A stretch of 64,000 bases of DNA from Pezizomycotina sp. ARF18 (Eukaryota; Ascomycota). The position numbers and the translations under genes were made by a program. Location of the stretch: NCBI GenBank assembly GCA_002224055.1, contig AZLU01000072.1, positions 112,707 to 176,706 on the forward strand, written 5' to 3'. Below are positions 11,623 to 64,000 of this stretch, one piece after another; the stretch's first letter is position 1, and each line of letters starts with the position of its first letter. Below the pieces are notes generated by a model. The model did no database searches and was not told the origin of the DNA. It was given only the letters and a program-made list of their open reading frames with translations.

Positions 11623-12725
11623 ATGAAGCAGTCAAAGGTGGTGAGGTGGTCTCTGTTTGCAGCAATAGCGATCTGGATACCCACAGCAGTCGCGCAGCTT
11701 GGACTAAATGCCAACGATCACGGATTCGGCTTGGACTCTCTCGAACGAGAGATACGTTCTGTCCCCTGAAGAGGAACGGACAGACTTGTTTCCTTCCTCT
11801 GAGTGCTGCTCAAATTATTGTGGCTCGTCGGGCAGCGGCCCCAATACTGTAGCTGCTCGTTGGCGGCCGGTCTTTCTTGTTTGTACTCGGATGCCTGTGC
11901 GCAGGAACAACATGCAGTGCCACTAAAAGATGCTGCTGGTCTCCCCGTCTACTTCAACCTGTTCATCGGACAATTTTTGTTGCGCAGGTAGCTGGTGCGA
12001 CACTAGCGGCAGCAAAACCTGCAAGACCAGCCTGAAGGCGGGAGACATGTGCAGCTCGGCTACCAGTAACCAATGTTGTAGCAAGAGCTGCACTTCGAAT
12101 TTATGCGATTGCACATCTATGGATCTACATCGGCATACTGCCTGACTTCGAGCGACTGTTGCCATGGAACCTGCACGAATAATCTATGCGTTTGCTCCCA
12201 AGCACGCGGAAGTGCAGCACCACGGAAGATTGTTGTAATCTGAGGAGGGGATCAGGTGTGCCAGCAGGGACATGTTGCCGCACTAATGGTCAACAGTGCA
12301 ACGCAGACTTCGGCGATGCGGAGTGTTGTTTTGGGATGTATTGTAGCGACAAACCCACTATCCGAACTATTGCGTTGCCTGGCAGTCCGCGCACACCAAT
12401 TGTTCAGTGATTACGTGTGCAGCAGCCAGAACTGCACGTCAGGTCAATGTACTTGCACACCTGTTGACTCAACAACTGGTTCTGTATCTTGGATGGCGAT
12501 TGTTGTGAAAGCGGCAAGTGTGTCGATAATCTCTGCGTAAGCGCACCGGCGCCAGACACTTCTACTACCATCAGCTCAGCTGTTGTCAGTTCTAGCGTTA
12601 CCGGTTCTAGTGTTACCAGTTCTAGCGTTACCAGTTCTAGCGTTACCAGTTCTAGCGTTACCAGTTCTAGCGTTACCAGTTCTTCTTCCAGTTCGACAAC
12701 TTCTAAAAAGCCAATACCATGTTAA
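11623..12725 (+). CDS. Secreted multi-module cysteine-rich protein
   Basis: The start ATG opens a clear signal peptide: basic MKQSKVVRW, a hydrophobic core, then a probable cleavage site AVAQ. About seven small modules follow, each with a double cysteine: SECCSNYC, DNFCCAGSWC, NQCCSKSC, SDCCHGTC, EDCCNLRRG, AECCFGMYC and GDCCESGKC, often followed by LCxC. The spacing recalls disulfide-rich knottin or Dickkopf-like folds, but I cannot name the family. The C-terminus is a Ser/Thr/Val stalk encoded by a 15-bp minisatellite, probably O-glycosylated and perhaps wall-linked. The modules fall in different frames, so the gene has several interruptions as written. Conserved cysteine spacing on both sides of these argues that the protein is, or recently was, functional. 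An extracellular role is inferred. Confidence 0.6.
12587..12690 (+). repeat. 15-bp coding minisatellite (GTTACCAGTTCTAGC)n
   Basis: About six tandem copies of GTTACCAGTTCTAGC with few substitutions, in frame, encode the repeated pentapeptide SSVTS in the C-terminal stalk of the cysteine-rich protein. A 15-bp unit keeps the frame when copy number changes, so stalk length could vary between strains. Confidence 0.9.
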
Positions 12726-13797: not shown

Positions 13798-13928
13798 TCC
13801 GATGTAGTCCAACGTAGCTAAGCCCGCTCCGTGTTATTTCTACTTATAGAACTCCCACTAACAATCTAATAGGGCTAGGATATATGTCTTTCACACATAG
13901 GATCCGGGTTCGATTCCCGGCATCGGAA
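13798..13928 (+). tRNA. tRNA-Glu(UUC) split in its D-loop
   Basis: The acceptor strands TCCGATG (13798-13804) and CATCGGA (13921-13927) pair perfectly. The T arm CCGGG-TTCGATT-CCCGG is perfect. The anticodon arm TATGT-CTTTCAC-ACATA gives anticodon TTC (Glu). The D stem GTCC/GGAT pairs with one G-U, but its two strands are separated by about 67 bases. Removing 13814-13872 leaves the loop AACGGCTA, the same as in yeast tRNA-Glu, and a 72-nt tRNA including the discriminator A. A T9 Pol III terminator follows. The insert splits the A box (TAGTCCAAC|GG), which could weaken transcription; the B box is intact. Either a tRNA with a non-canonical intron or one broken by a clean insertion. Confidence 0.85.
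13814..13872 (+). other. 59-bp spliceosomal-intron-like insert in tRNA-Glu
   Basis: The insert starts GTAGCT, contains the branch-type motif CACTAAC and ends TAATAG, with the branch A about 11 bases before the end. It sits in the D-loop, not at position 37/38 where eukaryotic tRNA introns lie. The alternative boundary 13815-13873 gives the same product. I see no target-site duplication and no inverted repeats at its ends. Confidence 0.6.
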
Positions 13929-17041: not shown

Positions 17042-18557
17042 TCAAAGCTCGTCCTTCACCTTCTTCTCCTTCTCCTTCTCGTTCGCCCTTTTGATCTTTT
17101 CCTTATCGATCACGACCTCCCCTTTCCTCTTCGGGCTAACGACCTGCCTGCCGTCCTTAATATAGCTACCCCTCCTCCCCCGCCCGCCTTCCATCCCCTT
17201 TCTGTGATCCTCGTGGCCCCTCTTAACCAGACTCGTAACAATCTCATACACAACCTCGCCCCCGCCAGCGCCGTGACCTCGCCAACAGAGTCATACGCCG
17301 GCGCAACTTCAACCACATCCGCCCCAACAACATTCAACCCTTCAATCCCCTCAATATCCTAATAAGCTCCCGCGTACTCCACCCTCCCGGTTCCGGCGTC
17401 CCCGTCCCCGGCGCGAACGCGGGTCTAAAAACGTCTATGTCGACGCTGAGGTATACCGGAATATCCGGGGGTATTAAATCGAGTATCATGCTCGCGATGC
17501 CGTCGGGCCGAGCGTGCCGCCGTACGGAGGATGGTGTCGTCGATTACGTCTGACTCGATGCGAACCAGCCGCCGAGGTCGTCGTCGGGGTCTACGGCGGA
17601 TTCGTGAGGTAGTCGCCGAAGTCGGTGCCGGATAGGCGGGTACGTAGGCCGGCGTGGACGGAGGCGTTGGGGAGGATATTGGCGGGTCGGAGGTTGCGGC
17701 GAGGTGGAAGAACGTGCCGTGGGTGAAGGCGGAATGCTCGGACGTCCAGTGGGATGGGTAGGCGGAGGGTGACCATGTGTCGAGATCTGTTGTATAGAAT
17801 GTTAGCAAAATACTCCTCGTAAAGACTTTAACCATAAAGCGATGTAACGTACGAGCGTCGAAATGGAGCACGGCCAGCGGCCCGTAGACCTTATACAAAG
17901 CCCTCAGTGCCGCTAACGCGACGCTATGGTCGCCACCGAGCGTAACTAACTTCGGAATCCTCCTCTCATTCTCGATCGCTTCCTGCAGTGTTAAGTCTCT
18001 TTATCATTAAACTTTGTACCCGCGTGTTCCTCTACCCAGCTTGTGCCTCTAGCTAGCAGTTCATCGAAAGCCTCCGTCATCATATCCAGGGCGAGCTTAT
18101 TATCAAAGGGCGTAACTGGTATATCCCCGCAATCAATGACTTTAGCCCATGATTGATACGGGTTGAGTCCTGCGCGGTGGTTAAACGCCCGACCGATCCG
18201 CTGGCGCTGGCTAGCGGCGCGGATCGCCCGGGGACCGAAGCGGGCGCCTGTGCGGTAGGAGACGGCGGTGTCAAAGGGTGCGCCGATTATCGCGATGTCG
18301 TAGGACGCGGAAGGATCCGCCAGGCAGCGGGAGTATGGGAGGTGCGCGAAAGTGGGGATGCCTTGGAAAGTGTACTTGGGAGTATGGTCAGCAATGTATT
18401 GTCAGATAATACGATAAGCTGAATAGGAGCTTACTTCCGCCGTCCATTTTTCATTGACTTTGGGCTTCTCCGCCGATGATGACGAGGTTATCGGTATAAG
18501 GGTTAATAGTAGGAAAGTCGACAGAGATGTCGCGATGCTGAAGCTCTTCATCGCCAT
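17042..18557 (-). CDS. Agmatinase-type ureohydrolase with signal peptide and KDEL tail
   Basis: Arginase/agmatinase superfamily enzyme: hydrolysis of a guanidino substrate (probably agmatine to putrescine and urea) at a Mn2+ pair. In order: N-terminal signal peptide ([17 protein letters not shown] and on), [59 protein letters not shown] and [13 protein letters not shown]. Metal ligands in the His and Asp motifs are present. The HFDAHLD motif is restored by an intron at 17787-17852 (donor GTACGT, branch TGCTAAC, acceptor ACAG). An earlier intron starts GTAAGC at 18434. After the catalytic domain comes a Lys/Glu-rich tail ending in KDEL and the stop. Signal peptide plus KDEL predicts an ER-resident enzyme. 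There are several single-base frame shifts; in SVDIDV.RP two nearby indels compensate (the usual sequence is VLDP). Confidence 0.85.
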
Positions 18558-30414: not shown

Positions 30415-31350
30415 GGAAGCTGGATAACTGGCAACGGAACTCTGGGAGCGGGACTTGAAAAGCATGGAAACTGGATAACTCGGCGGGCTCGTCTTATCAA
30501 TAAGGTTAAACCAACGGCAGTTTATGTCTATCAGCCCAATTCGTTTCTCACATGTGGTGCTACGCCAGTAACACACAGCGAATGGGTATATCTTACATAT
30601 ATAGAGCGAATCTCCAAATCTTCATCTCCACTCTAATGGTCTCGGGAGTGAATGGAGGAGCCAGATCTTTCAATCATATAGGAAACACCGAAATTGTCTT
30701 TTGTAGAATATCTGAAAATAAGTCTAGAGGCTGGACAGATACTATAATGCTAAGATCTATTATCAATCTGTAACGGTACCATAAAATAAAGCCGATGACA
30801 ATATCGGAACACGAACGGTATAATGAGACCCCGGCATTAAAAAGTAAATTATGGAAAAAAAAAAAAAAAAAAACAAAAAAAAAAGTAGTGATCGACTACA
30901 GAAAAGTGAGAGCAAATCTACAAAGCCGTTATAGCGGTAAGCATGCTGTCGGTCCGCCCGCTTTTCTTTCAAACACTAGCAATGTTGGTGATATAAAGCC
31001 AGAAAACTTTGTAATACTGCTATCTAGTTCGATCAAGGATCGGCTGAGATCTCATTTATTGTCGTACTAACTACGTGGTAATTGCACACTGTCTACTATA
31101 AACGTCAATGAATCCAAGATTTTAGAGCCAGTGACTTCGGTTGACCATTCCGCGCCTTCAAACGAGGTATATAACTGGCTCCCGATATCATAATTCCCCA
31201 TTCACAGGAATACTCAACTCGAAGATATAGCAACGGACTAATTAGAACCCCGAGAATCTTACATTGGTAGCTATTGAAATAACAAATTCGGAAGCACGAG
31301 TTCGTCGAGCTAGCTAGCTCTACTACCAACGCCATCAGCCGTCAAACTCT
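30415..31350. other. Spacer with A-rich run
   Basis: Contains an A18 run and a second A run around 30856-30884. No gene seen. Confidence 0.4.
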
Positions 31351-31356
31351 AGCAAG

Positions 31357-31996
31357 ATGTACCACATTATGGGCAACGACCTCCACCTGTCTAAGGAGGA
31401 TCGTGAGCGCGTCCTACGAGCGCAAGCTTGCGCCGACGCCCCCGGACCTTGCACTTTGTCAAGCCAAGCTCTGACCCTTGCTTTCGTCGGCTGCGGGTTT
31501 CTCCAAAGTCACGGCTTTGTTAAAATAAATGAGCGTCCCTGGAAAATTGATTCTATAAAGTTCTCCCCGGCGAGAGTCCTCCAGCCGCGCCACGTACGCA
31601 TTGTTGGCACCGACATCGTAACTGGGGAGAAGGTCGAAGCGCAGTTACTCTCGACGGACAAGGTGGAAGTTTCGATGTCAAGAAAGCTGAATACAGTCTC
31701 GTCGACATCAACGAGAATCTACTGACGCTCGTAGATGACAAGGAACAAAGGAAGAACATTGTTGAGGTTCCTGAAGGGGAACTTGGTGAAAACCTGAGAA
31801 CATTATTATTCGGAAGGGAAAGGACGTGGTTGTTCTGTTACGTCGACTCTGGGCAAGGAGCGGGTCACCGGGTATAAGCAAAGGTGAATGGAGATATAAA
31901 AAGCCAATGTTCAACCCCAAACACACAGCCCTCGACATGATAGTGTCGCGGCCTGATGGAGGTTTTTTTTCTTTTCCTTTTTCTTTTTTGGGTTGA
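31357..31996 (+). CDS. eIF5A-like protein without the hypusine lysine
   Basis: Several eIF5A segments are recognisable in order: HGFVKINERPWKI (family NGFVVIKGRPCKI), VRIVGTDIVTGEKVE (VHLVGIDIFTGKKYE), AEYSLVDINENLLTLVDD (NDYQLIGI.DGYLSLL.D), VPEGELGENL (LPEGDLGKEI) and KGKDVVVLL. The hypusine loop, normally STSKTGKHGHAK, reads KFSPARVLQPRH here, with Val where the modified Lys should be. It therefore cannot be hypusinated and is unlikely to replace eIF5A. Two frame changes lie in the second half. The extra N-terminus (LSKEDRERVLRAQA) is unusual. The Woronin-body protein HEX-1 is another eIF5A relative, but the C-terminal half fits eIF5A better and I see no PTS1 end. A decaying or diverged paralogue. 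Confidence 0.65.
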
Positions 31997-33574: not shown

Positions 33575-34550
33575 TCTCTTTTTTTTTTTTTTTTTTTTTT
33601 TCAAGGGATATATTAGGTAGATCTTTGTTATTAGCTGGTAAAGATCTCTAGTTAAGAGATCTTATTAGATACTCTTACAAATAGCTAGAATACTAGGTCA
33701 CCAGCTGCATGAGAAATGTTGGCCTGGGAAAATAAAGAAATCTCGCTATATTCACCAGTTCTTGACACCCCCCTACCGCTTCGCTGCATTGCCTTACTTT
33801 TTCTTACTCCTATATTTCTATGGTTATTTTATTTATCTATTTTTCCAATATTGTCTATATTCAACCAAGCACGCCCCAAGTCTGCACGCGAAGTAGCGTT
33901 TTAATAGCAATCGAACTATAATTCACACCTTCCAATCTTTTACCAAAACTAGCACATATAGGGACTACTATTGGTCTCCAGAGCAGGAAAAATAGGTATC
34001 TTCGTACAAGTGTTATTATTATACATATAATAATAAATTTGTACGAGAAGAAAGTAAACGTCCAGTTCGCCTCGCTGATGCAAAATCAGAGACGGGTATC
34101 TAACAGAAATTTTCCAGATTCCATGCAACCTCGCAAACTGCAGACATAAACTTGAAAAAGTTAGAGAAGAAAAAAAAAAAGACGTCAACTCCCCACTAAG
34201 AAGTTGTTGCCCCCTGGATGACATCGTATAATTCCTGGTTAATGCGACTTTAGACCCAAAAACGTACCCTGCCTATCATCCTACTAAGAAAGGGTATGGC
34301 AGTAATGGAGTTCGCGAAAAGATTTGAAAAAAAAAAAAAAAAAAAAAAAAAGAACCCAAACAGAAAGCAGAAACGAATAAATACTCAGTACATATACAAG
34401 TAACTACGACATAAGTAATTGATAGATAGGTAGGTAGGTAAAAATTACAAAATATAAGAAATACTATATATAAAGGAAACTTTTAAAAAAAAAATGCAAC
34501 GCCAAAATTACATAAAACACGTTTTTCAAACCGGATAAGGTGCTCCTACG
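33575..34550. other. Spacer with T22 and A25 runs
   Basis: T22 near 33579 and A25 near 34327, plus a short GATA/GTAG microsatellite near 34420. No gene supported. Confidence 0.4.
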
Positions 34551-34554
34551 AGTC

Positions 34555-34800
34555 CTAAGCTTGGTATGGGCCCTGTGATGTGGGTTCGAGATTATGAGAA
34601 ACTCGGGCCAAGTAGGTGAACTCGCATAGAAGGCTAAATGCGAGAGGGAGGAAGTAAGGGGGGAAAGGCCAGAAGACTCGGAGTACATGGAGGGCGGTAG
34701 AGGCCGTTAACATATCATATAGTACGGCGAGTATGACGATCGCTGTGATAAATCCTACGGCGTAGACGAAGATCCACCCCAAGAACTCGAAAAGGTTCAT
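34555..34800 (-). CDS. 81-residue two-helix membrane protein
   Basis: The uninterrupted minus-strand frame starts at ATG 34800. Two hydrophobic segments are clear: FEFLGWIFVYAVGFITAIVI and, after a short loop, FWPFPPYFLPLAFSLLCEF. The C-terminus is polar (RVSHNLEPTSQGPYQA). No homologue comes to mind. It lies 131 bp downstream of another tiny membrane-protein gene on the same strand, so the two may be related copies or exons of one transcript. Confidence 0.45.
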   Translation of the reverse strand: MNLFEFLGWIFVYAVGFITAIVILAVLYDMLTASTALHVLRVFWPFPPYFLPLAFSLLCEFTYLARVSHNLEPTSQGPYQA

Positions 34801-34930
34801 ACAAAGACCAGAAGATCTCCTAAAGGACTATTCGAGAATAATATTGGTATTAATTGGAGTGGCGTTACATGTAATGTACATGTATGCATACTCAGGATAC
34901 GGAAGGTGTAAGTGGTTGTAGTAGGTTAAC

Positions 34931-35185
34931 TTACAATTTTCTATGATAGTATGCTACCCATAAAAGAGGGAAAAGAAAAGCAGACCATGCGACAAGCAAG
35001 CTATCGTGAAAGAAAGAAAGAAAGTAAGCATGTTAGTATTCCTCCATAGATGTATAATATAAAGAAGCCACAATTAAAATTCTAAATACTACTTACATGA
35101 TCTCGGGTAGGATAGAGCCAGTAGATGGGATGAGACGCCCAGCGAGCAAGCCATAGGCCAGTGCCAACGCGTTTGTCATCGTCAT
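34931..35185 (-). CDS. 52-residue two-helix membrane protein with intron
   Basis: Exon 1 from ATG 35185 gives MTMTNALALAYGLLAGRLIP and on. A 96-bp intron (35001-35096) has donor GTAAGT, branch TACTAAC and acceptor CGATAG. The join keeps the frame and exon 2 gives a second hydrophobic segment (ILLVAWSAFLFPLLWVAYY) and the end HRKL with stop TAA at 34931-34933. Near-consensus splice sites with an exact frame join make chance unlikely. The protein is small enough to be missed by standard annotation. Function unknown. Confidence 0.55.
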
Positions 35186-35189
35186 CAGG

Positions 35190-35448
35190 AATAATGGATG
35201 TTTGAGCTTTCCGAATACGAATATGAATTTAGAGAGGAGTAAAAGCCGGTATCTCGAGAGTCTGTTGGCTGGGCGTTTGCCCGCATCGGATCAGACGTGG
35301 AAGAGATAACAGGGTTTTCCAGCGATACAACGCTCATTTGTAGGAACGTGCCGGTGGGCTGAGAGAATATTCGGCCATTTTGACGAGGTGAAGAACGGGG
35401 CCGTTTGAACTGGAGACAATGTTTTCCTAAGCTGTGGCAGTAATTGTT

Positions 35449-35479
<31 letters not shown>

Positions 35480-38160
35480 CCAAACGATCGCGATGATATA
35501 TAGAGATAGGAACCACCAAGAAAAGAATGAACCATTCAAAAAAAAAAAAAAAAAAAAAAAAAATACCCGCCCAAAAAAAAGAACCTCTTGAAGTGAGAAC
35601 AGAGAGAAAGAGGATTTATAATAATAGTAATCCTCTGAGAAACTTACAAAGAATTGATGAAATTCCTCAAAATATTAACCTTGCCAGAAGTAGGTCGTTG
35701 TTCAAAGTCTAGGAGGAGGAAGAACGAAGATAAAGATGAGGGTAGCTTAGGAACGCGAGGTGGGCAAGAGGGAGGATAGTAGCTTTATAGTAAAGCCTTC
35801 AAGAAAATAAGAACACGGCCACAAAAAAAAAAGAAAAAAGAAAAAGAAAAGAAAGAAGATGGGAGACTTATGGGGATTAGAAACGACCGTGAAATGTCGA
35901 AGAAAGGAAAATATTCTTATTATTAAAGGAAATAAATATAAGTAGCATGTACGTTAAGTAGTGTAGTAAGTGTTCCGGTAAATGTAGTAAATGTATAATA
36001 TACTTTATTTCCTGCTCTCCACAGCAAAAGAAAAATACTAGCAAGGGAAAAAAAAAAAACACCAGAAAAAAAATTTTCTAGTGAGTAAGAAAAAATCCCA
36101 GAAGAAAAAAAAATCTGGGAAGGGAAAAAAACCAACTGGGAAGGATAAAAAAATACTGAGAAAAAAATACAAGAAGAAGAAATAGGAGAAGGAAAAAAAA
36201 ACTAATTATATAAAAAAAAAAAAAAAAAAATACTAGTTAAAAAAATACTAGGAAAAAAAAAAAAGGGAACGAAAGGCCCTGGAAGAGGAAGAGGAAATAT
36301 TTCGAAAGAGAAAGTGAAGGCTTTGCTCCTTGGGTGGTTTATTAAACGACGAGAACCTTTTAGGACGCTTGAAGTGCGTAGGCAAAAAGTGCGTGGGAAA
36401 AAAAATATTATAACCATGAACTTCGTATACACTGCACACCGAACGGTCTTTCTGATTAAAAAAAGAAATGGTGGGGGGATGACGGTGGGAGAAGGTAAGG
36501 GATGGAAGGGGGGGAGTAGTAGGTAGAGAGAGAGAGAGAGAAGGAGGAAAAGAAAAGAAAGAATACTCAAGTCCTTCACACCCTTTTTGTAATAGTTGGT
36601 GGGGTGGGTGCGAACTTGAGGGGAAAAGGGTTTTTTTTTCCCTCCCTTTTTTCAAGTAATGCGATTAATTACGTGAATTGCGGATCTAGCTAGGTGTGCT
36701 TGACCTGATAGAGGAAGAGGGGAAATCGGCCATCCACTGTTCAGATTTATATTTATTTATTAACAATGCGCAAAGGATATTCTGCAAATAGCAAGTAGAA
36801 CTATCTCGGACACGCAGTACATGATGTATTTTTCTTTGTCGGGTTTGTAAGGAGAATACAATTGCTATGACACCCGTACATCAAAGGCAAATGAAGTTTA
36901 AACGCATAGCAGAGATAGCAAAATGCACCGTCATTCAAAGAAGAGAACGAAATTGAAGAAAGTACTTTTTTTCAGATGGCGGTGCTCAATGCGTCTTTCA
37001 CCGCCCTCATCCCAGTCCTTAAGGTTACTACGGCCTTGTATTCGTCGTTTGCCATTTGCAGTAGTGCATGTTCTCTCTATTAAGCTTGCCAAAGTGGAAC
37101 AATCTCTTTATTCGGTTCTCAGTAGAAGTCTAAGACGTCCCTCTGTTTTCCGAGGCGTTAACTATAACTTAAAATAACAAAGAATTCAGTACTGTAGTAT
37201 ATTATTGACAAGATCTCATTTGAATACTTTTCCGGCAGAGTGCGTGCATGGTTGGAGTCCAAGTTGAGAATCGTCTTAACAGAGCCTCGTTTCCTTCACC
37301 GAATCCTTTCCCCTTTTCCTAGTTTCTTCAATTATACATTTGTAGAGAATGTCATGAGCTCAGGAGGGCTATCTTAAATGCCCCTTGATCTGTTCTTCGT
37401 CAGTGATAGGTGGTTGTAAAAAGTAAAAGAGTGATACTACTCGGCGTGGCTGCAGCACTTTTGATGAAAGGGCAAACTTTCAGATGAAGTGAGCTGTGAA
37501 AAACCCTACACTTACGTTGGAATATATTTGATTTTTTTTTTTTTTATAGGTCTTTAGAGCGTTCAACAAAAAAAAAAAAAAAAAAAAAAAAAACACAGAG
37601 AGAAAATAAGAGCTAATGAGTTGTTATGAACGGTATAGAAGAATTTTCGAGCAACTTTGAGGCAAGGAATAGCATTGATCATCAGGCGTTTCGTGAAACA
37701 AACTGTAGCGGAGGTTCATCACCAGAAATAACTTCGACAGCTGGACAATACTATTTACACCCTCGATTTTCTTTATGTATTTATCATAAAAACGGCCCTT
37801 CCCGCTGCGAAGTCTACACATTTCAGCAATAAGACTGGATCGTCTGTCTCCAAAAAAAAAATTTTTTTTTCTTTTCTTCTTTATATAAATAAGTAGGTTA
37901 AAGTAAAAGGAGGACAAGAGCATAGGACAGAGGAACGGAAAGGAAAAATCCGGCTAGGGAAAATTACCCTGCTTTCTCTCTTTTCTTCCCTCCCTCTCTG
38001 TTTTGTTCAGCTCGTTTGCTTCCAATCCTACGCTGTTAGTTCCTGCCCTCGGGTTCACTGCCTAAATTCCTTCACTTTCTTCCTAAGCAATTTTCACGGT
38101 TTGGGGCCTCAGGGGTTCAAATAGAGGCAAAGGTTTCTAAGCTTTCATTTCGTATTTCTT
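35190..38160. other. Low-complexity, purine-rich region without a gene
   Basis: Holds T28 near 35452, A25 near 35539, A-rich DNA from 35820 and A31 near 37568. From about 36000 to 36570 the plus strand is almost pure A/G with recurring CTGGGAAGG and ATACTAG-type pieces. The long Phe/Leu/Ser-rich minus-strand frames there are products of this composition. Confidence 0.5.
36000..36570. repeat. Polypurine/A-rich low-complexity tract
   Basis: The plus strand is strongly biased to A and G for about 550 bp, including A18 and a GAGAGAGAGA stretch near 36527. Such tracts can exclude nucleosomes or form triplex DNA; neither can be shown here. Confidence 0.6.
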
Positions 38161-43375: not shown

Positions 43376-44985
43376 TTACAAAGGCACAGCAACTTTTGCA
43401 GCACCGGTTGCACCGGCGACATTACCAACGGCAGAAGTAGCCGCATCCCCGAAAACAAAACGCATGACGCTCTCGTAACAGTCCTCAGCGTGCTTCAGCT
43501 TTATCGCCTTGGACACTTCCTTTTCCGCCTTCTTCCGCTCCCTTTCGATCATCCTGATCTCCACTTCTCCTCCTTCATTAATAACTTCTCCTCCTTCGCT
43601 AACAGTTTCTCCCTCTTTTTTAAAAGCTCCGCTCTTTCTTCAGCATCTTCTTCTTACTCTTACTGTCGTCTTTCTGTTTTTGTGGATTTTGTTTTTGTTG
43701 TTGTGTTGGCCTTTTCTTCTTCGCGTTATATTTACATTTCGGTTTCTTCTTTGTAGTAGTAGTAGTAGTAGGGTACCGTCGACGTCCAGTTTTGCGGCGT
43801 CGCCGGCTTCGGTAGTTTCGGATTTTTGCGGGTGTGGTGTTTCGATTTTGATTTTTGACGACCTGCTTGTCGTTCTTTCGAGCTTTGGGGCGTAAGGATC
43901 CTATACCATGCTGACACGCTGGCGCTTCCGGCCCGGTCCTGCTGCGGCGGCCCTTCCGGGTTCCTTCTCCTTGGCGTCGAGGAGGAGCGAGAGGACGTCG
44001 AAGCCGAACTGCGGGTAGTCGATGACCATTTTCTTGAACTCCTCTTCGGCTTCGTGGCGGAGGATGTATCCTGCATATCACGAAAAAGCAGCCATGCATT
44101 AGTAAATATCCTCCGAACGATATCTCCCCATGATACCGGAAGCTCGAAAAACTTTTAACAGGAGAATTAAACGTACCTTTATGGCTCCAGAACGCAGCGA
44201 CGGGACTGCGGATCGTCCGGTCGTCGTTCGGCGTGTTACCGTAGACGTACCTAGCGTACGCGATCTCGCCCCTGGCGCTGCCGTTGACCTTGTGGATCTT
44301 CTTGTGCGCCAGCGTCTTGAGCTCCCTCACACCGAACTTCTGCGCGAGCGTGTACACCCTCGCGTGCTTGAGCAGGTGCGTGCCGTCGTCGTCCATCTTC
44401 GGCCTGTTCGGGTCGTCCTCGAGCGACTCCTCGCCGTTCACTTTTTAGCAGGCGGGGAAGTAGTCGCCCGTGTACAGGTACTGCACGAAGCAACCGACGG
44501 CGTCGAGGTCATCGGAGGGAGGTCGACGGTAAGGCGGGCCGGGTCGTCCGGGATGGTGAAGGATTTGAAGTGCGAGCGGAAGTATGGGGATTTCTTGAGG
44601 AGCGACATGTGCGCTGTCATCTTGGCCGGTGTGCCTCCCGTAGACCGACGTTCAGTGTGACTGTTGGTGTTTGGAGATGGCTGGAAAAATGATCAGCATG
44701 GCAGCGAGCTTCGACGGAAGCAACACTAGAGTAAAGTAATGGCTTACTCAAGGAAGGTCATCGCAAACGGGCTCGGCGACTCCGAACGCTCTTCCTGCTC
44801 TTCCTCCTCGGGCTTATCCTCCTCCTGTGGAGGGTCGCCTTGCCGTTGTCATCACCGGCGGCGCCGCTCTCTAGCGCGGCCGAATCGAGCACGTCCTCCA
44901 TGGTCTCATCGCCTTCAGGGATTGTCGGCGGGACGCTAGCGTCGCCGGCTTCCGACGCCGGTATGTCGACGAAGAGATCAGACAT
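43376..44985 (-). CDS. BTB/POZ-domain protein with Lys-rich C-terminus
   Basis: The ATG at 44985 gives an acidic N-terminus (MSDLFVDIPASEAGDASVP). An intron at 44681-44747 (GTAAGC...TTTTTCCAG) precedes the BTB domain: TPTVTLNVG, KMTAHMSLLKKSPYFRSHF, DLDAVGCFVQYLYTGDYFP, LLKHARVYTLAQKFGVREL, LKTLAHKKIHKVN. A second intron, 44071-44176 (donor GTACGT, acceptor ATGCAG), joins SHK and GYILRHEAEEEFKKMV. The last 150 residues are a Lys/Arg/Gln-rich region and a helix near the end (ERERKKAEKEVSKAIKLKH). BTB domains dimerise and often recruit cullin-3 or serve as scaffolds; the partner is unknown. Frame shifts lie near 44650, 44500 and 43950. Transcription is divergent from the six-module gene. Confidence 0.8.
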
Positions 44986-45664
44986 GAGGCAAGGTTAGGT
45001 AGGTATGAGAAGGGATCTGGGTGGATGCTTTCGGCAGCCAGGCTCTGAAGAAAGGCTAGATGAACCTGACAACAAGAACAACACCACCAATAGGCAAAAG
45101 GTAATAGCACAAGATATATGGATAGACAGCAATTGGGTGAATGGTAAAAAGGAAGCGATTGACTGGAATGAAGATGATATAGTAGGAGGCAAGGCGTTAA
45201 TTAGCAAATTAAAAAAAAAAAAAAAAAAGAGGTTATTATAAAAAAAAGTTGGGATGAAAAAAAATTCTATATTAGGAGGTTTTTCTTTTTTCTTTATCCG
45301 TAGGGGAATTTGATGGAGTAAACAAATTGCGCTATTTAGAATAGCGGGGAGGCTGGTTGCGAGGCAACGGAATTCAAAAAAATAATTCGGCCACACCCTG
45401 TCAAAAAGAAAAAAAAGAAAAGAAACGAATAAAAGCACGTGACCCAATTATCCCTGACTTGGCGCTTTGGCGTTTTTAAGTTTCCCTCTTTCTCTCTCCT
45501 CCATCCCATCGCCAGGAAAAGGCAATTAACCGAACTCTTCCTTCCTTATCTATCACGCGATATCCGCGAACAACGTTTCATCAAGTTCGAAACACGCAAG
45601 GTTACACACACTATTTATCTTACTCTAATTTTCTATCTTCTTCTCTAGTGCTTTCCCGGATGAA
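44986..45664. promoter_or_regulatory. Divergent intergenic region (BTB / six-module gene)
   Basis: About 680 bp between two start codons pointing apart. It contains an A18 run near 45213 and further A/T runs near 45240-45420, which usually disfavour nucleosomes. A shared promoter region is an inference. Confidence 0.5.
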
Positions 45665-48600
45665 ATGGGCTCGTCGGACGCGGACCTACAAGGTTTCGCC
45701 GGCGGGGAGGTCCAAAGACGGGTATGGTTCAGGCGTGGCATGGTGACGGACCGTGCCGTGCGGATGATCGGGAACCTGGCGTTTCTAGAAGCATGGGCCC
45801 CTAACGGAGCCGTATCCATGAATGCGTTTGCCGAGGTGCTCAAAGCTTGGATCAACGAGGAACGCCTACGTCTCCTCCGCGGCTCTGAAGCCGATGTCGA
45901 GAACGTGGTGGCGATCACACGGTGGCAGAGCATCACCCTGATCCTTCTGATTCCGACGAAACGGAATGGTATCAAGATTGGAACGAAGGCGTCCACGCTC
46001 GAAGGTCCTCGAGGGATCTCGGGCGGCAAGGGGTGCCTCCGGACGCTCTTGTCCCGAGTTGATTGGGCCATCGCGATGCCAGTCTCAGGCTAATAGCACG
46101 CGAGCGCGTGCTGAAAGGCTATTTCCACACGGAAGGGCAAAATTGCCGCCTGCTCCACCTTTGTCTCTGGAGCTAAGAATCGCTGCATCGCAGGACCTAA
46201 CAACTGCCGGTGAAGAGACGCGAAGTGGGCCCGTGGATAGTCACAGCAGTCCTGGACCCATAGTTCAGCATTTTCCCCGCTCCTCCAAAGAGCCCGAGAG
46301 TAATATTACTACCGAGTTCTACCCATCATCCACTTCTCAAATGAGCTATCAGTTGAAGAACACTCACGCAGTGCCTTGCCTCAAGACCTCCGGCAGCGGC
46401 GTGAATCATGGTTCGATCGGGGCATGATCAGCAAATCAGCCGATTCGATGGTCCAGTCCCTTGCCATGGCTGAAGGCTGCCGTGAGACTCTAATATGGGA
46501 CTGGATTGAAACCCACCGCAAGCTGCTTAGGCACGGAAGCATCGAGGACCAGAAGCACCTCGATGATTTGATTTTGTGGAGGTACGATAACAAGAATCCG
46601 CTCAATCACGACGCGGAAAGCTGGTACGGCTCGAAAAGACCGACCGTACCTCAGCGGAAGATACCTTCGGTGAGGTTTCAGTTCGATGAGACCATGGAAG
46701 GTATTATGGTGCCCATGGATACTTGGAAAGACATTGTGAAAATGGACGACATAACGGCACTAGCGATTGAAGACGATCAGAACATGTCTGTAGATGATCC
46801 GCCACCCACGGGAAATCTACAGAAACTTATCGAAGAGTTGATATCAATAGCAAAGGACACGGTTCCTGCACCGGCGACTTTAACCTCAACAGCGAGACAC
46901 ACCGACCACGACACTTCGAAATCAGAAACAACACTAGAACTGTGCTCACAGTCAGCAATAAATTTTACCGATACCCTGGAGGAGCGGCGGCGGACCTGGC
47001 TTTTCCGGGGTATGATACGAGAATCCGCGAAGTCGATGATCAACCACCTTGCGGATATCGAGAAGAACGAAACGGGCGGCGGTGAACACCTGCCGAACCC
47101 TGTAGGAATTATTTTGGAATGGATGCAAAAGGAGCGATGGAGACTTTTGCATGGGACGAAGGAGGAGAAGAAGGAATTCAGGAAGCTTTTCGAGTGGAGT
47201 TGCACCAATGGAAACCCAAGACCGGATGACGAGAGTACTTGGTATAGGGCCGAGCGGAGCGATGTGGATTGCCTTCGAAATGAAAGCCCGTTTCTGATGG
47301 AAGTCGGCGAGGCCAAGGTGCCGCTGGAACTATCCAGCTCTTTGGGGCCGTGCGGTTGAAGAGGTTAAAGCCTCGAACGATGCTAACGCAACAGCCTCGG
47401 TTGAGGGTAATCGGCAATGTTCGGGCGGTGCTGTTGTACCGGTCCCGGTCACCACGGCGAAAGGCCTGCTCTGGAAACGGCGGAGACAAGTAGTTCAGCC
47501 GCACGGGTGTCCACACCTCCAAGCTCCACCAGAAGGGCATCACACCTACGCCGCAAGTTCCACCCACTGGGTCTTCTCGAAAACAAATCAAGGCCGTTAC
47601 TAGAAAAGTCACCAAGCAGCGCCGCCGCACATGGTTTCGCAGAGCCAGGATCAGCAAGTCTGCAACGTCGATGGTACAAAACGTCGTGAAAATTAGAAGG
47701 TTGCAACCCGCAAGTCATCCACGAGTGGATTGGAAACGAAAGGCGGCGGTTGCGTCTAGGAAGTAAGGAAGACCGTAAGAACTTGCAAGCCGTCATCGCG
47801 TGGTATTCTAATAATAGGAATCCCGATCCGGAGGATGAGTCTACTTGGTCTCGGGGTGGGGAAGTGTTGGATGGTGGTACGGAGTCGTGATGCGGCGCCT
47901 CTGGATATGCCCGTTAAAGCCTTCGCGAGGGCTAGGAAGGTAGGTGGGACAGGCTCGTTGTGGAGGACAATGATGCGCAAGTAGCCGCAGCAGTGCCTAC
48001 GGAGTCTGTGGCGCAAATCGCGGCCCACCCATCGACAGCATCCAAGCCCTTAGCGTCCGATTGCGCCGTTTCCGAGCTTCCTGCACCTGAGCCCACGGCT
48101 ATAGAGCCTATGGGAACAATTACAAAGGAAACGCCACTATCAGAGTCCGCTACAGAGATACCTGGTCCTTTGACCGTTGATACTTCCGTGAAATCGAGCG
48201 TAGTAGATCCTGAACCTCCAGAGCGCATCGAAGTAAGGCGGCAAATGTGGTTCACCGCGGCATGATCAGCGCCTCCGCAACCTTAATGATAAATACCTGC
48301 GCCGAAGCAGACGGCTGTAGTTCCGCGGACGTGATCGCCTGGATCACCGCGTTCAAACAGCGACTTAGAAAGAGCACACCCGGCGACCAGGGAAACTTTT
48401 GGGAGATCTGCCAGTGGCACGCTAAGAACCAGAATCCCGATGCTAAAGATAATAGCACCTGGTACCGCGGTTGGAAGTGGAGCGAAGGGTCGCTTCTTTC
48501 GAAGGGAGTCGTGGAGTGGGTCAAAAGGAAGAGCTTTAAGGGGCGGATGTACCTGTTATTTCGCCGATGAAGAAGCGGAGGAGGGTGTCGTTTTGTATTG

Positions 48601-49139
48601 CTCCAGATGCTTCGGCGACAAGGAGGGATAGCGATGCGACTACAGCCGTAAGCGACTCAAACACTTCAATCAAAAAATTAGTACCGCCCGCACCGCCTCA
48701 AAGAGAAGCTCCAACCGGCACGATACCGTAACACCCGCCACCCATCTATATCGTGGGACTGCCCGCGCGATAAAGAACACCTCCGCCGCCTCTGGTTCCG
48801 GTACGGCATGGTAACCGAAGCCGCGAAATCCATGATACGCAAACTCGTAAACATCCAACAGACAACCGAGGAAGATATTTTGCAGTGGATCGCGCGCGAG
48901 AGGAAAAGACTCAGCGAAGGGACAGCAGTCGATAAAGAGAATTTGTGCGCGGTTATGTTTTGGGCGTGCTCGAATCCTAATCCAGACTTTAGGATACGGG
49001 GGAGTGGTTTAGAGGGTGGAAGGAGGAGGATGTACGGGGTGAAACCGCATACGCGCAGAAGCAATGGCAAAATATATTGCCCGCGGCGGCGGGCAGCACT
49101 GGCAATGTCCTAGTGGGGCCGCTAGAGCTAGTAATGTAA
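45665..49139 (+). CDS. Large protein with six diverged copies of an unknown ~80-residue module
   Basis: The ATG at 45665 (MGSSDADLQGFAGGEVQ) leads at once into module 1; stop TAA at 49137-49139. Modules begin near 45707, 46388, 46974, 47612, 48233 and 48770. Shared pattern: RR.WF.RGMI, SA.SMI, then W(I/M)..ER.RLL.GS.ED...L....W, N.NP...DESTWYR. Examples: WFRRGMVTDRAVRMIGNL, WFDRGMISKSADSMVQSL, WLFRGMIRESAKSMINHL, WFRYGMVTEAAKSMIRKL. Linkers of 100-140 residues are acidic and Ser/Pro/Thr-rich. Length would be near 1,150 residues. No signal peptide or membrane helix. Copies differ strongly in DNA but keep the same residues, so the fold has been held by selection. At least five frame shifts are present, yet each module reads through on both sides of them. 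I know no named domain that fits. Confidence 0.75.
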
Positions 49140-50667: not shown

Positions 50668-52706
50668 CTACGCCGCCGTAACAGTAGTATTCTCCGGAGC
50701 CCCCTCGACATCCGAGCTCTTAGCCCTTTGCAAACCGCTATCCCCCTCACCCTCGCCGATCTTCCGACTACCACTCCCAATAACAACTCCCTTAACCCGC
50801 TGATCCATCATATCAAGCTTAAACTCCTTCATAAACGCCGCGAAAAAACAGCATAGGGACGCACGAACACGTCGCGACGATCAGTAGCGTCTTCATAACC
50901 TCGCTGTACGCTCTGTTAATCGCTATCCTCTCCGGAGTTCCCTCCAGGAATGTTTGAGCGGTGACGAAGCTGCCGAAGATCGCCGTCGCGTTACCCTTGG
51001 CTTCTTCGGGGAGGTATGCGATTAGCTTTGACTTTAGGTTCGGTCCCCAGATTGCGCCGGAGACCGCCGCACCGACGGCGGCGCCGACGGATAGGACTGT
51101 TAGGAAGAGCGCCGTTGCGGCGCCGACGTCGGCGTGCGGAACCGCGGCTTGTACGCCGAGTTGCGCGGGACGTTTAGCAGACCGCCGCCGAGGCCGATTA
51201 TTACTTGTCCCATGATTATCTGCGCCATGTTGCTGGATTCGGTGCGGTAGCGGATCATGAGGCCCATGCCGAGGATGTAGATGAGTATACCGACGAATAT
51301 GAAAATTCGGTAGCGGTGGAGCGCGTACTTTATAAGTAGGGAAACGATTATGGAGGATACGGTAGAGCAGAAGGAGAATGTCTGTACTACGTGTCCCGCG
51401 GCCGTAGCGGAGTAGTTTTTCACGACGCAGAGGTATGAGAAGAAGTATGGGTATATGGAAAGGTAGAACGCCATAAAGTAGAAGAACGCGATTCCGCAGC
51501 CGCCGATGACCGTCCTGTTTTTTTAGGAGGCGGAGGGAGAGGAGGGGTTTCGGGGCTAGCTTTTTGGAAGTTTCGAACCAGGGGAGGATGAGGATACAGA
51601 CGCCTCCGACACCATCATGGCGATCAGGCTAGGATTCTTCCACTTGGAGGAGGCGCCCGCGGCTAACGTCAGCGGATAAGCAGCAGCGTTAAGCCTGCGG
51701 TGAAGATTAAAATCCCCATGACGTCCAATTCCCAGAATAGCTCCTTCGCGACTTTCCACACCGTGCCGACTCTCCCCATCTTCGAATCCTCGGGTACCCA
51801 CCGTTCCCTCCACACCGGTTTCGGGAGTATACCCATCTTCTTCGCCTTCCGCTGGTTGTAATACAGCGAGAACAGCAGCGGTAAACAAGCGACGGGTAAA
51901 ACGAAGCACCAGATAGCATACCCCCACCTCCACGTCGTCTTCTTCAGTAAATCGCCCGAAATGACGGGACCGATCCACACCGTCGCTAAAAACGGGTATC
52001 GGGTAAACTACTCAGCAACGCACGGTTTAATAAATCCGTCGTATCGGCGACGAATACCTGCTGCAGGAGTTGCAGACCGGTGCTACCGGCCGAGTAGAAG
52101 ATCTGCGCGGCGGCGTAGGTGCGGACGTTATTTGATGCGGCGAGCTGGATGTAGCCCGCGAGGTAGATGACGATGGAGATTGTGAAGGCTTCGGGACGGC
52201 CGAAGGTGTCTGCGATTTAGCCATGGGGGGTTTCACGACGGCCATTAGGACGGCTTGGACGATGGAGACGGTCGAGAGGAGGGAATGCAGGTGGAAGGAG
52301 GAGGTGGCGTAGGCGGCGAGGAGGCTGGTGGTTTGCACCTCGAGGGAGGTCGCGAAGGCCATCAGGAAGACACTGACAGGTTATCATTAGCAAAAATGTC
52401 TCGTTGAATTTGAAGATTTTCGGATTAAGTGAGTGATGATTCTTACCCCGCGTAAGCAACGTATAACGCCCTCTTCGTCCACGCCAGCGATATGGCCTCG
52501 ACTTTCTTCACGCCGGCCTGCACTTCATTGCTGGACTCCGAAGAGGCGTCGGCGTTTTCCTGGATGGAGTCGGAGGATTGTTCGTCCTTGAGGTCTATGT
52601 TGCTGTTGCTGTTCGGCTGAGCTGCAGCGGCAGAAGTAGTAGCACCGGTGGTGGTAATTGGGGAATCACCGTTGTCCTCAGCTTTCTTCCTGTTGAAGAG
52701 GCCCAT
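50668..52706 (-). CDS. Siderophore-iron transporter, MFS (SIT/ARN type)
   Basis: Plasma-membrane importer of ferric siderophores by proton symport, from family knowledge. The ATG at 52706 starts MGLFNRKKAEDNGDSP with an acidic cytosolic head. The family hallmark VEAISLAWTKRALYVAYAGVFL spans an intron at 52373-52446 (GTAAGA...TGTCAG). Then come SLEVQTTSLLAAYATSSFH, PPMAK, EAFTISIVIYLAGYIQ, QQVFVADTTDLLNRA, WIGPVISGDLLKKTTWRWGY (loop and motif typical of SIT proteins), GAAFMAFYLSIYPYFFSYL-like helices, IIMGQVIIGLGGGLLNVP and a C-terminal EGTPERIAINRAY.EVMKTLL with stop at 50668-50670. About 600 residues and 12-14 helices, normal for SIT. Frame shifts near 52218 (A run), 52010, 51660, 51520 and 51150. 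GATA sites lie upstream. Confidence 0.88.
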
Positions 52707-57145: not shown

Positions 57146-60100
57146 ATGACGCCTCCGTCCGAACAAAGCGCCACCGCAAAGGCCCTCTGGGACAACCACA
57201 ACAGCAGCAAGAAAAACAGAAACAGCACCACAACAACCACAGCAACAACCTCAGCAGCCACAACAGCTATCTTCGCCCAGGTTACAGTATTTACAGAGGC
57301 AGCACCCGGATTCGTTCCACTTGGACAGGAGGGATACCAAGGAAGAGTCACCGTCACGGCCGAACAACAGCTTCAACCTCAACAGTCCGCACCCGCGTAA
57401 CAAGCAGCACTACCACCAGCACCTGCACCATCACCACCACCAACAGCAGCTTCCACAGCTGCTACAGGGAGAGCAGGAGATGTCGAACATGACGACAGCT
57501 ACGTCGCAGAACACGCCTACGGACCCCGTAATGCGTCCAGCAGCTACCTCCTACGGTACGGATCCTGGCCGGCGCAGATGCCCGCGTCGCAGTTCTCCGT
57601 CAGACCCACTACAGCAGCCTCCGGGAATCCACGAACCCCGTCGCGGACCTGTCAGCACACTCCAGTTCGCCACCCCACCCGACGACGGGGTACTTCTCCT
57701 CGCTCATGAGCGGCAAGCCCTCCCCGCTTCCCGAACAGCACCGGCCGCAATTCTTCGATACGGGTGGATCCTCGACATCGCTGGCGTCTTCGTACTTTTC
57801 CCGCGGGATGATGGGACTAGTCCTCTCAGCATGACCGAGCAGATTATGGGCGGCGAACGGTCGGGCCCGACGACGCCGGCTATCAACGAAGAGCGAGATG
57901 TCCGGTTTCAGCTGCCCGTAAGCCCGGGCGTGCTGTCCGGTGGATCTCACGAAGAACCTGCCTCTGAGGGTTACATAGATTTGCAATGGGTGTACAGCAT
58001 AGTAAGTATCAAGATTCCTTCACAGGCAAAAGACTTTGTCAGAGTGCTGAAATTTTTGAATGGCGCAGAGTAACCTTCACGTCTTCCGAGCAATATCGAA
58101 AGCCGCCATGTCACCCGTACAGCTTAAAGTCGCCGACGAAAACAACAACGAGTCCGTCGCAAGGCTGCGCAACGAATGGCGACTCTTCTCAGGCGCGGAA
58201 CTGGACATCTTTCAAATGCATCCGTTTTATCGCCTATGGCAAACCAACCGAACATATCTGCCGTCACGTCACCTTCTGGAAAAACTGGGGCGAGCGCGTC
58301 TATTATACCAGGCCAGTCTTCGATGTCTTCCAGTTCCTACTTGGCTTCGAATTTCGGGCAACACCCGAGCGTCGTTGCTCCCATGCTCATCGATTACCTC
58401 CCCGAAGGACCCGTGGCGCTCGTGTACGACGACAAAAGAGGGTACAAAACTGCAAAGAATGGTTCCTGCCAGAGCTACCAGAGTTTGATTCGAGAGCTCC
58501 GTCGCCGCCGCTCGTAGATCCACTAGACGTCAACACACCGCAACCGCAAATACAACCTTCGCACTCATCACAGCCCTCCGTCGAAAAGCTACTCCCGCCA
58601 TCTTCAACCAGCAGCCCGAGCTCAGGACTACCGACTGACTCTTCTGGCCCATACAAGTCATTGACTACACCGAAGCCGAGGACGCAAAGCGACCTAATAG
58701 CAATACTAACGGTTATCTCTGACGTCGTTGACGTCCTCGCGGTATCGCACAGACTTGGCATAATCCACAACAACATCAATCCTTTCACTGTTCTCGTAAG
58801 TCAGAGCCAACCTCCGCGGGGTTACTTAAGCGGATGGCATCATGCTACCCGGCACGAGCGCGATCCAGTCGGCGGCCACGGGACTGTGCCTTTGCAATTC
58901 AAGGAGAACCTGATGCCGCTGCAGTACGCTGCTCCCGAATGTACTGGAAGGATGAACAGGACCGTCGACCTCCGCGCGGACTTCTACTCGCTAGGCGTAA
59001 CGGCGTACGAGCTCTGCGTAGGGTTTCTGCCGTTTAGATCGCTGGATGCGCTGGAGCTGATACACCAACACATCGCGAAAGCTCCCGACCCGCCGTGCGA
59101 GGTGAACTTGTCGATCCCGCCGAGCATATCCAACGTTATCATGAAAATGCTACAGAAGAACGCGGAGGATAGGTATCAGACTGCTAACGGGCTGAAAGTC
59201 GACCTGGACGTTTTGATCGAGAGAATATCAAAGGGCACCAGTCTGGATGATTACGTCGTCGGTGAGGCGGACGCGACCAGTCAGTTCATCATCTCAAATC
59301 GGTTGTACGGCAGGGAGAAGCAACTGGCAGATTTGCTGGGACAGTACGACCAGATCAGGACGAATAAAGAGAGCGCTATCGTGCTCATCGGCGGATCTTC
59401 GGGACCGGGAAGAGCCGTCTGGTGCAGGAAATCCAGAAGAATGTAATCAGGAGCAAAGGTTACTTCACGAGCGGGAAATTCGACCAGTACAAGAGGAGTT
59501 CGTCATTTTTCAGCCTCGTACAGATTCTGCGGGATTTAGTGCGGCAGGTACTATCGAGAGCACGCAAAACCTAGCAAAATGGAGAGTTGATACGATACGC
59601 GCCCTCGACGGCGAAGGGGCTGCGCTCATTGAGGTTGTGCCGAGCTTAGGATGCTGCTGGCGCAGATTTCCACGTCGAGCAGCTGCCGACTTTAGGCCCC
59701 GCGGAGCGAGAGCAGCGGTTTCGAAACGTTTTCATACGGTTCCTTTCGATCTTCGCACGCAAGAACCTTGTCGTGTTTTTGGACGATCTGCAGCGGTGCT
59801 CCCACGCGGAATTTACATCGATTGCTAACCTCATCGAAATAAGCGCGGGGACGCCAAACCAGAGTACGCTCCTCGTCGGCACCTATAGGAGCGGTGAAGT
59901 CGGACAGGATCACCCACTAAACACATTCTCGCGAAAGCGAACGCTAAAGTGATACACATCGAGCTCGGACCGTTGGATATGGCGAGCGTGGAGGCCATGG
60001 TTTCGGATACGCTGCACAGGCCGCGAGCGAGGTCGGGCAGCATCGGCTCGTTGGATAGTAGGGCGGACACTACTACCATTACAACGGAGTCGCCTGGTAG

Positions 60101-63100
60101 CAGCGCCGGTACGCCCGTCCGATCTAGCCACGACTCCGAGCTGAAGACGCTGACGGAACTCGTGTATGCGAAAACGGACGGGAACGCTTTCTTCGTCACG
60201 CAGCTGCTGAAGAGTTTATTCCGGGGTGGGCACATCTACTACGACTTCTCGGAGCGGATATGGAGGTTCAGCCTCACGACTCTGGAAGCGGAGGAGCTAC
60301 CGCCGACCGTCGTGGATTTGCTGGTGGGACAGATGATGGATCTCGACAAGAACGCGAGGGATATGATGATGCTCGCGTCGTGCCTGGGATCCGACCACCG
60401 CCTCACGCTCGAGATGCTCGCCATGGCCAGCGGGAAAAGCGAGGAGGCGGTCGCGAAGGATATCTGGGGCGCCGTCGATGCTGGATTACTGCTGCCATAA
60501 CGGGGCAGTACTACGTGAGCATGGCGCACGAAGGTTCTCGCAGCCGGATTCGAACAGGTATCCCGCTACGCCCGCGGGGAAGCTACGGAGAATGTAGCGT
60601 ACAGGTTCCTTCACGACCGCGTGCAGCAGGCCGCATACAGCCTCATACCGCCGGATAAAGTCGAAGACGCGCACCGGAAAATTGGGAAGAGGTTATTAGC
60701 AGCGTCGACGGAAGACAACTTTGGGAGCATGATATACGAGATCACCAACCAGCTGAACTTTTGGTCGGTCCGATGACGGTGGAGGAGACGGAAGAACTCA
60801 TGTGTCTCAACTACCAAGCGGGGAAGAAGGCGCTCGACGCGACGGCGTTCATCGCTGCTCTGGGTTACTTCAAGCACGCTAAGAGGTTGCTGGACAGCTT
60901 ACCGCCGCAAAGCCAGCGGGGCAGCAGCAGGAACGGAGGCTGTCGCCGAGTAAGCTGAGTATCGCCACTGAAATACCTCCCGCGTGGATATACACCTCGC
61001 GCTTGCGGATGGTCACTACGCGCAGGGAAATTTCGAAGAGGCGATTGCGGTCGTCGATGCGTTAAAGGTTTCTTCGTCGTCCGTGGTGGAGAAGAGCCGG
61101 TGTTACCTCGTCAAGATGAAGTGTTATTGGGATTGGGGAATTTACTGGAGACCGTGGATACGGGATTGGAAGCGATCAAATTGCTCGGCACTACATCCCT
61201 CGGACGACGACGCGGCGCTGGCGCACTCTAAGAAATTACGCCAGAGTAAGAGGATGGATACCGTCGACGTCCGCACGCTCAGGATCATGGAAGACCGAAA
61301 AACACATGAGGGGATATACTACCCACGAAATCGCGACGGTGGTGTTATTACCTGTATATATGGCACGTCCGCGCTCCTCGTTCGCTGTGCATGACGAGCT
61401 TCATTACGACGATGGAAAGCGGGCTGTGCATCGAGAGCGCGTATCCGATCCTCATGCTGGCCGTCCTCATGGCGTCCGAAGGCGGGCAGAATAACCTCGC
61501 TAGGGCGTGGCACTTTGGAAATCTCGCTGTTAGCTTGGTGGAGAAGGAGATCGAGGAGAATACGACTCCCGTGAACGCGTCGGGGATATACCAGGTCTTT
61601 CGCGGGTCACATTGCGGTGTTTCACAGGCCAATGTCGGACGTTATCGGGTATTTGAATTCGGCGATCACGACGGGGCAGGCGGTTTTCGATGTGGATTAT
61701 ACCGTTTTTGCGATGTAAGTTTTTTACTCTCCATCACGATCTATAGAGAGAGAGTGTGTGTGTGTGTGTGAATTTAACTGATATATTTCTTATTTTAGCG
61801 TCGAAGTACCTGTCTACGGCATGTTCGCTGGCGAACGCCTCGAAAGCGTCGCGCTCAAGATGAACACCGCAAAAATCAGCGTCGACAACCTCAATCAGAA
61901 ACTCGGCACGCTGTGGTACCTTATCCCCAGCCAATTCCTGCGAAACCTCCGCGGCGTCGGTAACTCCGACCCCCTCAAACTTTGTCGGCGAAGACATGAC
62001 GGCCGAAGCGACGGAAGACCTCCTGGCTTCGGAGAGCATCAGCCACTGCTACATCTTCTACATGTGGCAGATCATCATGGCCGTGCTGTTCGACAAGGCC
62101 GACTTTGCGATACGGATGTACATGCGCGAGTGCCTCGGCCGCGAGTCCGCGATGAAGAGCACGATCTACGTGTCCGTCGCTTACTTCTACCTCGCCATCG
62201 CGCTCATAGACCGCCGCGAGAACATCAGCAGCGAGGAGATGGATTTATTGCAGCTCTGCATAAAGAGCACGAAGGAGTGCGCGATCTTCAACAAGCAGAC
62301 GTACCAGCAAAAGCCGTGTTTTTGGAAGCGGAGTACTACAAGGACCAAGAAAACCCGCTGATAACACTGGATAAATTCGAAGAAGCCATCAGCCTCGCGA
62401 ACGCGGCGCAGTTCTTCCACGACAGCGCTTTCATCAACGAGCGGTGCGCGCGGTGGATGATGCCGCTGAGTAAACGGCGGGGGATGACGTACCTGACCGA
62501 AGCGTACAGGCTGTATACGTGGTGGGGCGCGGCGGCGAAGATATCAGCGCTCAGGAGCAGCTATGCGGACGACCTGGGCTTCCGGAACCGGCCGCCGCTG
62601 TCTAGGAACGCGAGCGAGGCTAATATCCCGCCGAGAGCCATGAGCAGTTTATCGTTGAGTCCGCGGATTAGCAGGCTGATACTACGGACGAAGGCGACAT
62701 GCTCGAAGAGATCCGGTCGTTACCGGGGAGCTGCATGGACGACGCTGCGGCCGTCGCTGCTGCTGCTGGATTAGGAGCCGCGGACGATTACAAGACGTTT
62801 TATGAAGGCTTCGCTGTACATATCTGAGGGGTGAAGATGGACGAGGTCGTCGTGAAACTCATGAGGAGCGTATTACAGACTGCCGGAGCGGATTACGGAG
62901 TCTTGATTATGGAGGAGGATGGGAATCTTTTTGCGGAGACGATACTGTTTATGGAGGAAGTTACGATATTGGACCATCAGCCGCTGCACGAAAGGCCGGA
63001 CCTCATGCCGGTTAGCGTGGCGAACGTGGTTAGTAAGCTTGGAGAAACGGTCGTGAAGAACGGTAACGACCAGAAGTTCGAGGGGACGTATGGCCGCGAT

Positions 63101-64000
63101 CCGTACTTTACGACGAGCAATAATCCGAGGAGCGTGCTCTGCATGCCGATTCGGAATCAGATTAAGATCGTAAGTCCCTCCCCCCCTGGCTCTTATAGTC
63201 CCTCTTTTTGTGGGTGGTGAAGGGGGATGTGAGACTGATATAGGGTAATGTGTGCAGATGGGGGTACTCTACCTCGAAAACAAGCACGTCAACCATGCCT
63301 TCACCTCCCAGCGCCTCGAGCTTCTCAACCTGCTCTGCACGCAGGCGGCCGTAACGATCGATAAAGCTCGCCTCTACAGGGCCATGGAACTCGCCAAGAA
63401 AGCCGCCGAAGAAGCGACGGAAGAGAAATCCAGCTTTTTGGCAAACATGTCGCACGAAATCCGCACGCCGTTCAACGCGCTGCTGTCGTGTTCCATTTTC
63501 TTACTGGACACGACGCTATCGGAGCAGCAGCGGGATTACGTCGAGACCATCCGCTCGTCCGCGAACATGATCCTCAGCGTCATCGACGGCATTCTGGACT
63601 TTAGCAAGATGGAACACGGTCCGATAGACTTACAGAAATCGCCGTTCTCATTGAGGGATTGCATAGAGTCGTCGCTACAGCTCATCGCCGAACCCGCCGC
63701 GACGAAAGATCTCGAGCTTGCGTTCTCGAATAAATGCCGAACGTGGATACGCTGTACGGCGACGTGACGCGGTATAGGCAGATTATTATAAACTTATTGG
63801 GTAACGCTGTGAAGTTTACGGAGAAGGGGTTTATACTGGTAACTTCGTGGGCTGAGAGGCTACCTGGTGACGATGAAGGGAAATACCGTATTTTTGTTAG
63901 CGTGGAGGATACGGGTATTGGTATTCCGCCGAACGCTAGGGATAAGCTGTTCCGGGCGTTTAGTCAGGTCGATTCGTCTACTCGCCGCAGGTTCGGCGGT
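57146..64000 (+). CDS. Hybrid histidine kinase, group X type (3' end outside the window)
   Basis: Domain order is that of fungal group X kinases (S. pombe Mak2/Mak3, Candida Chk1), which sense stress and feed the Ypd1 phosphorelay. A Gln/His/Ser/Pro-rich head leads to a Ser/Thr-kinase-like domain (about 58050-59200: VQLKVA, IIHNNINPF, MNRTVDLRADFYSLGVTAYE). Then AAA-type ATPase (59300-60500: LYGREKQLADLL, Walker A near 59395 reading G.GKSRLVQE, TDGNAFFVTQLLKSLF), a long helical middle, GAF (62830-63330: GVLYLENKHVNHAFTSQRLE), HisKA (H-box FLANMSHEIRTPFNALL near 63440) and HATPase (NLLGNAVKFTEKG, VEDTGIGIPP, LFRAFSQVDSSTRR). The receiver domain would lie beyond 64000. Introns: 61715-61798 (GTAAGT...TTTTAG) and 63170-63257 (GTAAGT...TGCAG). 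Ten or so frame shifts; the first codon is uncertain. Confidence 0.9.

Follow-up and report, generated by a model that had tools for sequence, protein, structure and literature searches.

Six related modules in tandem, tentatively homeodomain-like, encoded on a contig of the fungus Pezizomycotina sp. ARF18

Homeodomains are defined by asparagine 51 and arginine 53 of the recognition helix. Their core signature consists of L16, F20, W48 and F49, I or M being allowed variants at position 49, and the animal ZF class comprises proteins with 1 to 6 homeodomains, four of them in ZFHX3 (PMC4901127). Here we describe an array of six related protein modules in Pezizomycotina sp. ARF18 (assembly GCA_002224055.1). 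It lies in a stretch of 64,000 nucleotides of contig AZLU01000072.1 (positions 112,707 to 176,706), called here the window, whose numbering is used throughout. With a probability of roughly 0.35, we read it as a tandem array of six divergent homeodomain-like domains on acidic linkers, perhaps forming a multivalent nuclear binder.

Six copies of a module of ~80 residues make up the array, which spans 45701–49040 of the + strand. The motifs common to the modules in alignments were RR.W(F/L), RGMI..SA.SM, LA..EG, W(I/M)..ER.RL, N.NP and DESTWYR. Module 2 (M2, 46397..46669) is encoded in a single open frame, which it shares with module 3 (M3, 46973..47266). This is the longest open frame of the gene (46304..47356, 351 codons from stop to stop). 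The other modules are each divided between two frames: module 1 (M1, 45701..46008) between 45701-45937 and 45943-46008, module 4 (M4, 47590..47871) between 47590-47694 and 47693-47871, module 5 (M5, 48221..48492) between 48221-48262 and 48250-48492, and module 6 (M6, 48769..49040) between 48769-49002 and 48993-49040. The start-to-start distance of the copies, by arithmetic on the RR.W motif coordinates, is 548–684 bp, in agreement with the 540–690 bp of the initial annotation. The same annotation had the linkers as acidic. This holds for the three stretches that are safely readable in frame, namely the M2-M3 linker (46670..46972, + strand, 101 amino acids, net charge −13) and two others of 86 and 30 amino acids (net charge −11 and −3); the remaining linkers, not safely readable, were left out. 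The majority of the module pieces themselves are near neutral in charge, and Pfam listed no zinc finger for the pieces scanned.

The six modules are homologous and have diverged under protein-level constraint. In pairwise comparisons of module pieces, 19 of 20 pairs scored above all 300 shuffles, and the score of the remaining pair, M4a-M5b, was equalled by 9 of 300. Profiles built from the other modules recovered each omitted one at E 7e-8 or better (M1 5e-11, M2 1.1e-24, M3 9.8e-23, M4a 6.9e-8, the weakest, M4b 3.6e-19, M5 2.5e-21 and M6 4.7e-22), background matches starting at E 0.13. Chance similarity is ruled out by the shuffles and the leave-one-out profiles. The protein-aligned pieces had a residue identity of 33%. 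At codon positions 1, 2 and 3 the identity was 0.490, 0.556 and 0.338, versus 0.266, 0.258 and 0.274 from composition alone, and in columns with differing residues the third-position identity was 0.28. The modules have diverged as protein, because codon positions 1 and 2 were held and position 3 was nearly free. These results uphold what had been proposed earlier, that the six copies are related and that the protein was kept while the DNA diverged. Of the two outcomes named in advance as refuting the proposal, a significant match to a described domain family and an alignment no better than shuffled controls, neither came about. The constraint dates from the divergence of the modules, and cannot show whether the gene is alive today.

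Each module is predicted to be a compact, mainly helical unit with four helices, and the models of M2 and M3 are consistent with the independent fold suggested by the initial annotation. In M1 and M3, the stretch joining predicted helix 2 to predicted helix 3 is longer by ~10 residues. The PDB matches of the M2 model were mostly homeodomains, all at non-significant E-values. Using hhalign, the module profile was compared with 13 homeodomains. The two matched in register over 25 columns, beginning at the end of helix 2 and covering helix 3 (score 19.33, E 0.0028, probability 10.8%), in a comparison picked after the fold matches were known. This score was reached by 1 of 400 column-shuffled module profiles against the full set, by 3 of 400 against TALE and by 4 of 400 against typical homeodomains, and by none of 80 reversed and rotated profiles. 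The c-Myb repeats, used as control, gave a score of 8.44 (E 0.5). In the hhalign register all six modules have W48; five have I at position 49 and the sixth has M, and R at position 53 is shared by all but M5, which has K. Helix 1 is outside the hhalign match; with its register inferred from aligned ranges, position 20 is F in five modules and L in one.

Other results weigh against the homeodomain link. There was no homeodomain among the matches of the M3 model. With a nominal limit of E 10, Pfam showed no homeodomain family for the seven pieces or for the joined M4 and M5, the listing filters removing most matches above about 0.1. Position 51 is E, T, K, N, A and R from M1 to M6, M4 being the sole copy with the asparagine (1/6). 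At position 16, again in the inferred register, the modules have R, and the homeodomain Leu occurs in 0/6. Because of the outcome for the curated models and for N51, we have not filed the modules as homeodomains.

There are weak indications that helices 1–3 form a divergent homeodomain-like helix-turn-helix, and both the fold and the function given here for the modules are inferred. The protein-coding gene would specify six mainly helical domains of ~80 residues, on long linkers that are acidic where readable. Each module would consist of the homeodomain-like helices 1–3, an added fourth helix and the conserved DESTWYR tail. The product may be a nuclear protein whose six domains, each a weak binder and joined by flexible acidic linkers, would act through avidity on DNA, chromatin or a protein partner. 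Its binding mode would differ from that of a classical sequence-reading homeodomain, the DNA-reading contact perhaps being mostly lost. A more detailed history, which we regard as unlikely, derives all six domains from homeodomains: they would have retained the fold and the W..R recognition helix, for the most part lost the N51 contact, acquired the fourth helix and come to make up a multivalent chromatin or scaffold protein of one isolated fungal lineage.

The initial annotation had called the repeat unrecognised, and no described family was found for it in Pfam, NCBIfam, PHROGs or PDB sequences. Pfam gave no convincing family for the module pieces and the joined M4 and M5. It listed NUFIP1 (0.019) and DUF4819 (0.13) for one piece each, and NUFIP1 again at 0.1; both were rejected as the module family, being below the cut-off or without support from other copies. 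NCBIfam had no family for the module. The six PHROGs families listed, at 0.033 or worse, were each matched by one member and were likewise rejected. Among PDB sequences there was no match for the frame of 327 amino acids; the module profile gave E 0.68 and 3, and the joined M4 gave E 3. A viral structure library returned 52 matches, none at 0.001, two of those shown being homeobox proteins. In a database of 5.8 billion proteins, no relative was found at E 1 among 722 candidates for the 327-residue query, nor at E 10 among 7991 scored for a single-frame query of 1158 residues. These two null results are weak, because the search requires a five-residue word in common, and of 20 piece pairs from different modules just 6 have one. 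An agmatinase search of the same database found many fungi, including Orbiliomycetes. Module-sequence searches of the own genome gave no place outside the array among the best candidates scored, and none of the papers listed in literature searches described a module of such kind in title or abstract opening.

If the homeodomain link fails, the module is a helical domain family described by none of the libraries searched. It would then be a new helical domain of another fold, not derived from homeodomains, within a multivalent protein- or peptide-binding scaffold, a role close to the ligand or peptide binding guessed at in the initial annotation. To this we give somewhat less than even odds, and hold it about as likely as the homeodomain-derived reading. 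Its odds are not below those of the latter because it stands for a broad class. The missing family matches and the M3 model fit such a fold, as does the near-neutral charge of most pieces, and helix 4, N.NP and DESTWYR fall outside any homeodomain. However, the excess of homeodomains among the M2 matches and the in-register profile match would then be coincidence, and no peptide-binding relative turned up. The other question to be weighed is whether the gene is intact. One continuous six-module protein, as initially annotated, is not borne out by the sequence, where there is no intact six-module open frame and only M2 and M3 have a frame in common. A stop-free path that keeps the module frames needs at least 12 frame switches over 3446 bp, four within modules and eight in linkers. 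Introns are rejected as the cause of the switches inside M1, M4, M5 and M6, because there the pieces abut or overlap and leave no space for an intron. Some of the eight linker switches could be introns.

So many switches could mean a true pseudogene, with frameshifts and stops present in the DNA of the organism and the constraint a remnant from before decay, and the module comparison, reflecting the time of divergence, cannot prove a living gene. However, conserved genes are broken in the same manner. In the same window, an agmatinase/arginase-family gene (17114-18374, − strand, one or two introns) agrees with two named orthologues in 239/350 and 241/357 residues. It has 7 or 6 frameshifts in ~1.1 kb of coding sequence, by orthologue used, six of them at identical sites. 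A search of the genome for HSP70 listed 38 matches, and the frames were worked out for two loci, on the contigs C49 and C70. The C49 locus is in seven pieces, with frame changes at 6/6 junctions and gaps of 31 bp or less. On C70 the frame changes at 7/7 junctions; at one of them a 91-bp gap would leave room for an intron, and another is a long overlap of alignments. A CHK1-like hybrid histidine kinase gene (57968-64000, + strand, running past the window end) had the Pfam domains protein kinase, TPR_CHK1, GAF and HisKA above cut-off. By eye, it has repeated frame changes across conserved domains, and at least one likely intron. The broken frame of the array is likely an assembly indel artefact, because conserved genes (agmatinase, HSP70) are broken as densely. 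That conserved genes carry frameshifts so often suggests that indel errors were left uncorrected throughout the assembly. A pseudogene thus seems improbable, and the gene is probably real and intact in the organism. With frame errors this frequent, gene calls and orphan claims from this assembly need care.

The neighbour of the array, a divergently oriented gene (43904..44994, − strand), is frame-broken and weakly BTB-like. We take it to resemble a fungal BTB protein. Pfam gave no family for its five pieces apart. When the pieces were joined with X, PF00651 was listed at E 0.012 with 16.2 bits, below the cut-off of 20.5; the broken frame could lower the score of a true BTB gene. Searching the whole genome for BTB gave 76 listed places within E 1, with none on the contig of the array. 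From the divergent BTB gene of the initial annotation, the divergent gene itself is present, and its BTB identity is sub-threshold.

The best named matches of the agmatinase were in Orbiliomycetes, with 76% to Orbilia oligospora. In a tree built from a 136-residue piece together with 34 proteins out of the 120 listed, the window sequence was placed outside Orbiliomycetes, with no well-supported set around it. Inside the kinase gene, ARAGORN called a tRNA-Arg, perhaps false (60533-60624, − strand), and Rfam found a different tRNA, not listed by ARAGORN, at 13863-13920 (+ strand). A major facilitator transporter was recognized in pieces at 51103-51980 (− strand; Pfam 23.4 and 19.4 bits, below the 33.4 cut-off). 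A frame at 31318-31722 (+ strand) matched an IF5A-like N-terminal domain with 23.9 bits, under the threshold of 27.1. The window also had a tandem repeat of a 15-bp unit (12587-12683, 6.5 copies, 95% matches), and, at 34001-38000, a strong purine bias of the + strand (GC skew 0.194 and 0.136, AT skew 0.246 and 0.138).

Compared with TALE and typical homeodomains (PF05920, PF00046), the modules are alike in the predicted helix order of M2, the LA-to-W spacing of 14, W48, I/M at 49 and R/K at 53. Helix 1 ends with W then L or F, presumably as in MEIS and TGIF. They differ in the Arg for Leu at position 16, in N51 being found in 1/6, in the lack of a Pfam match, in the extra fourth helix and tail, in the longer loop 2 of M1 and M3, and in the failure of the M3 model to match homeodomains. 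HNF1A has an insert between helices 2 and 3, like that predicted for M1 and M3; unlike the modules, it is a recognized DNA-binding homeodomain. If the homeodomain link is true, the array would be an unusual multiplication of homeodomains in one fungal protein, drifting from DNA reading. Several domains of the same kind within one protein are also found in the ZF class, as in ZFHX3, whereas in the array the pieces scanned are without a Pfam zinc finger, the domains are not recognized homeodomains, and the organism is a fungus, not an animal.
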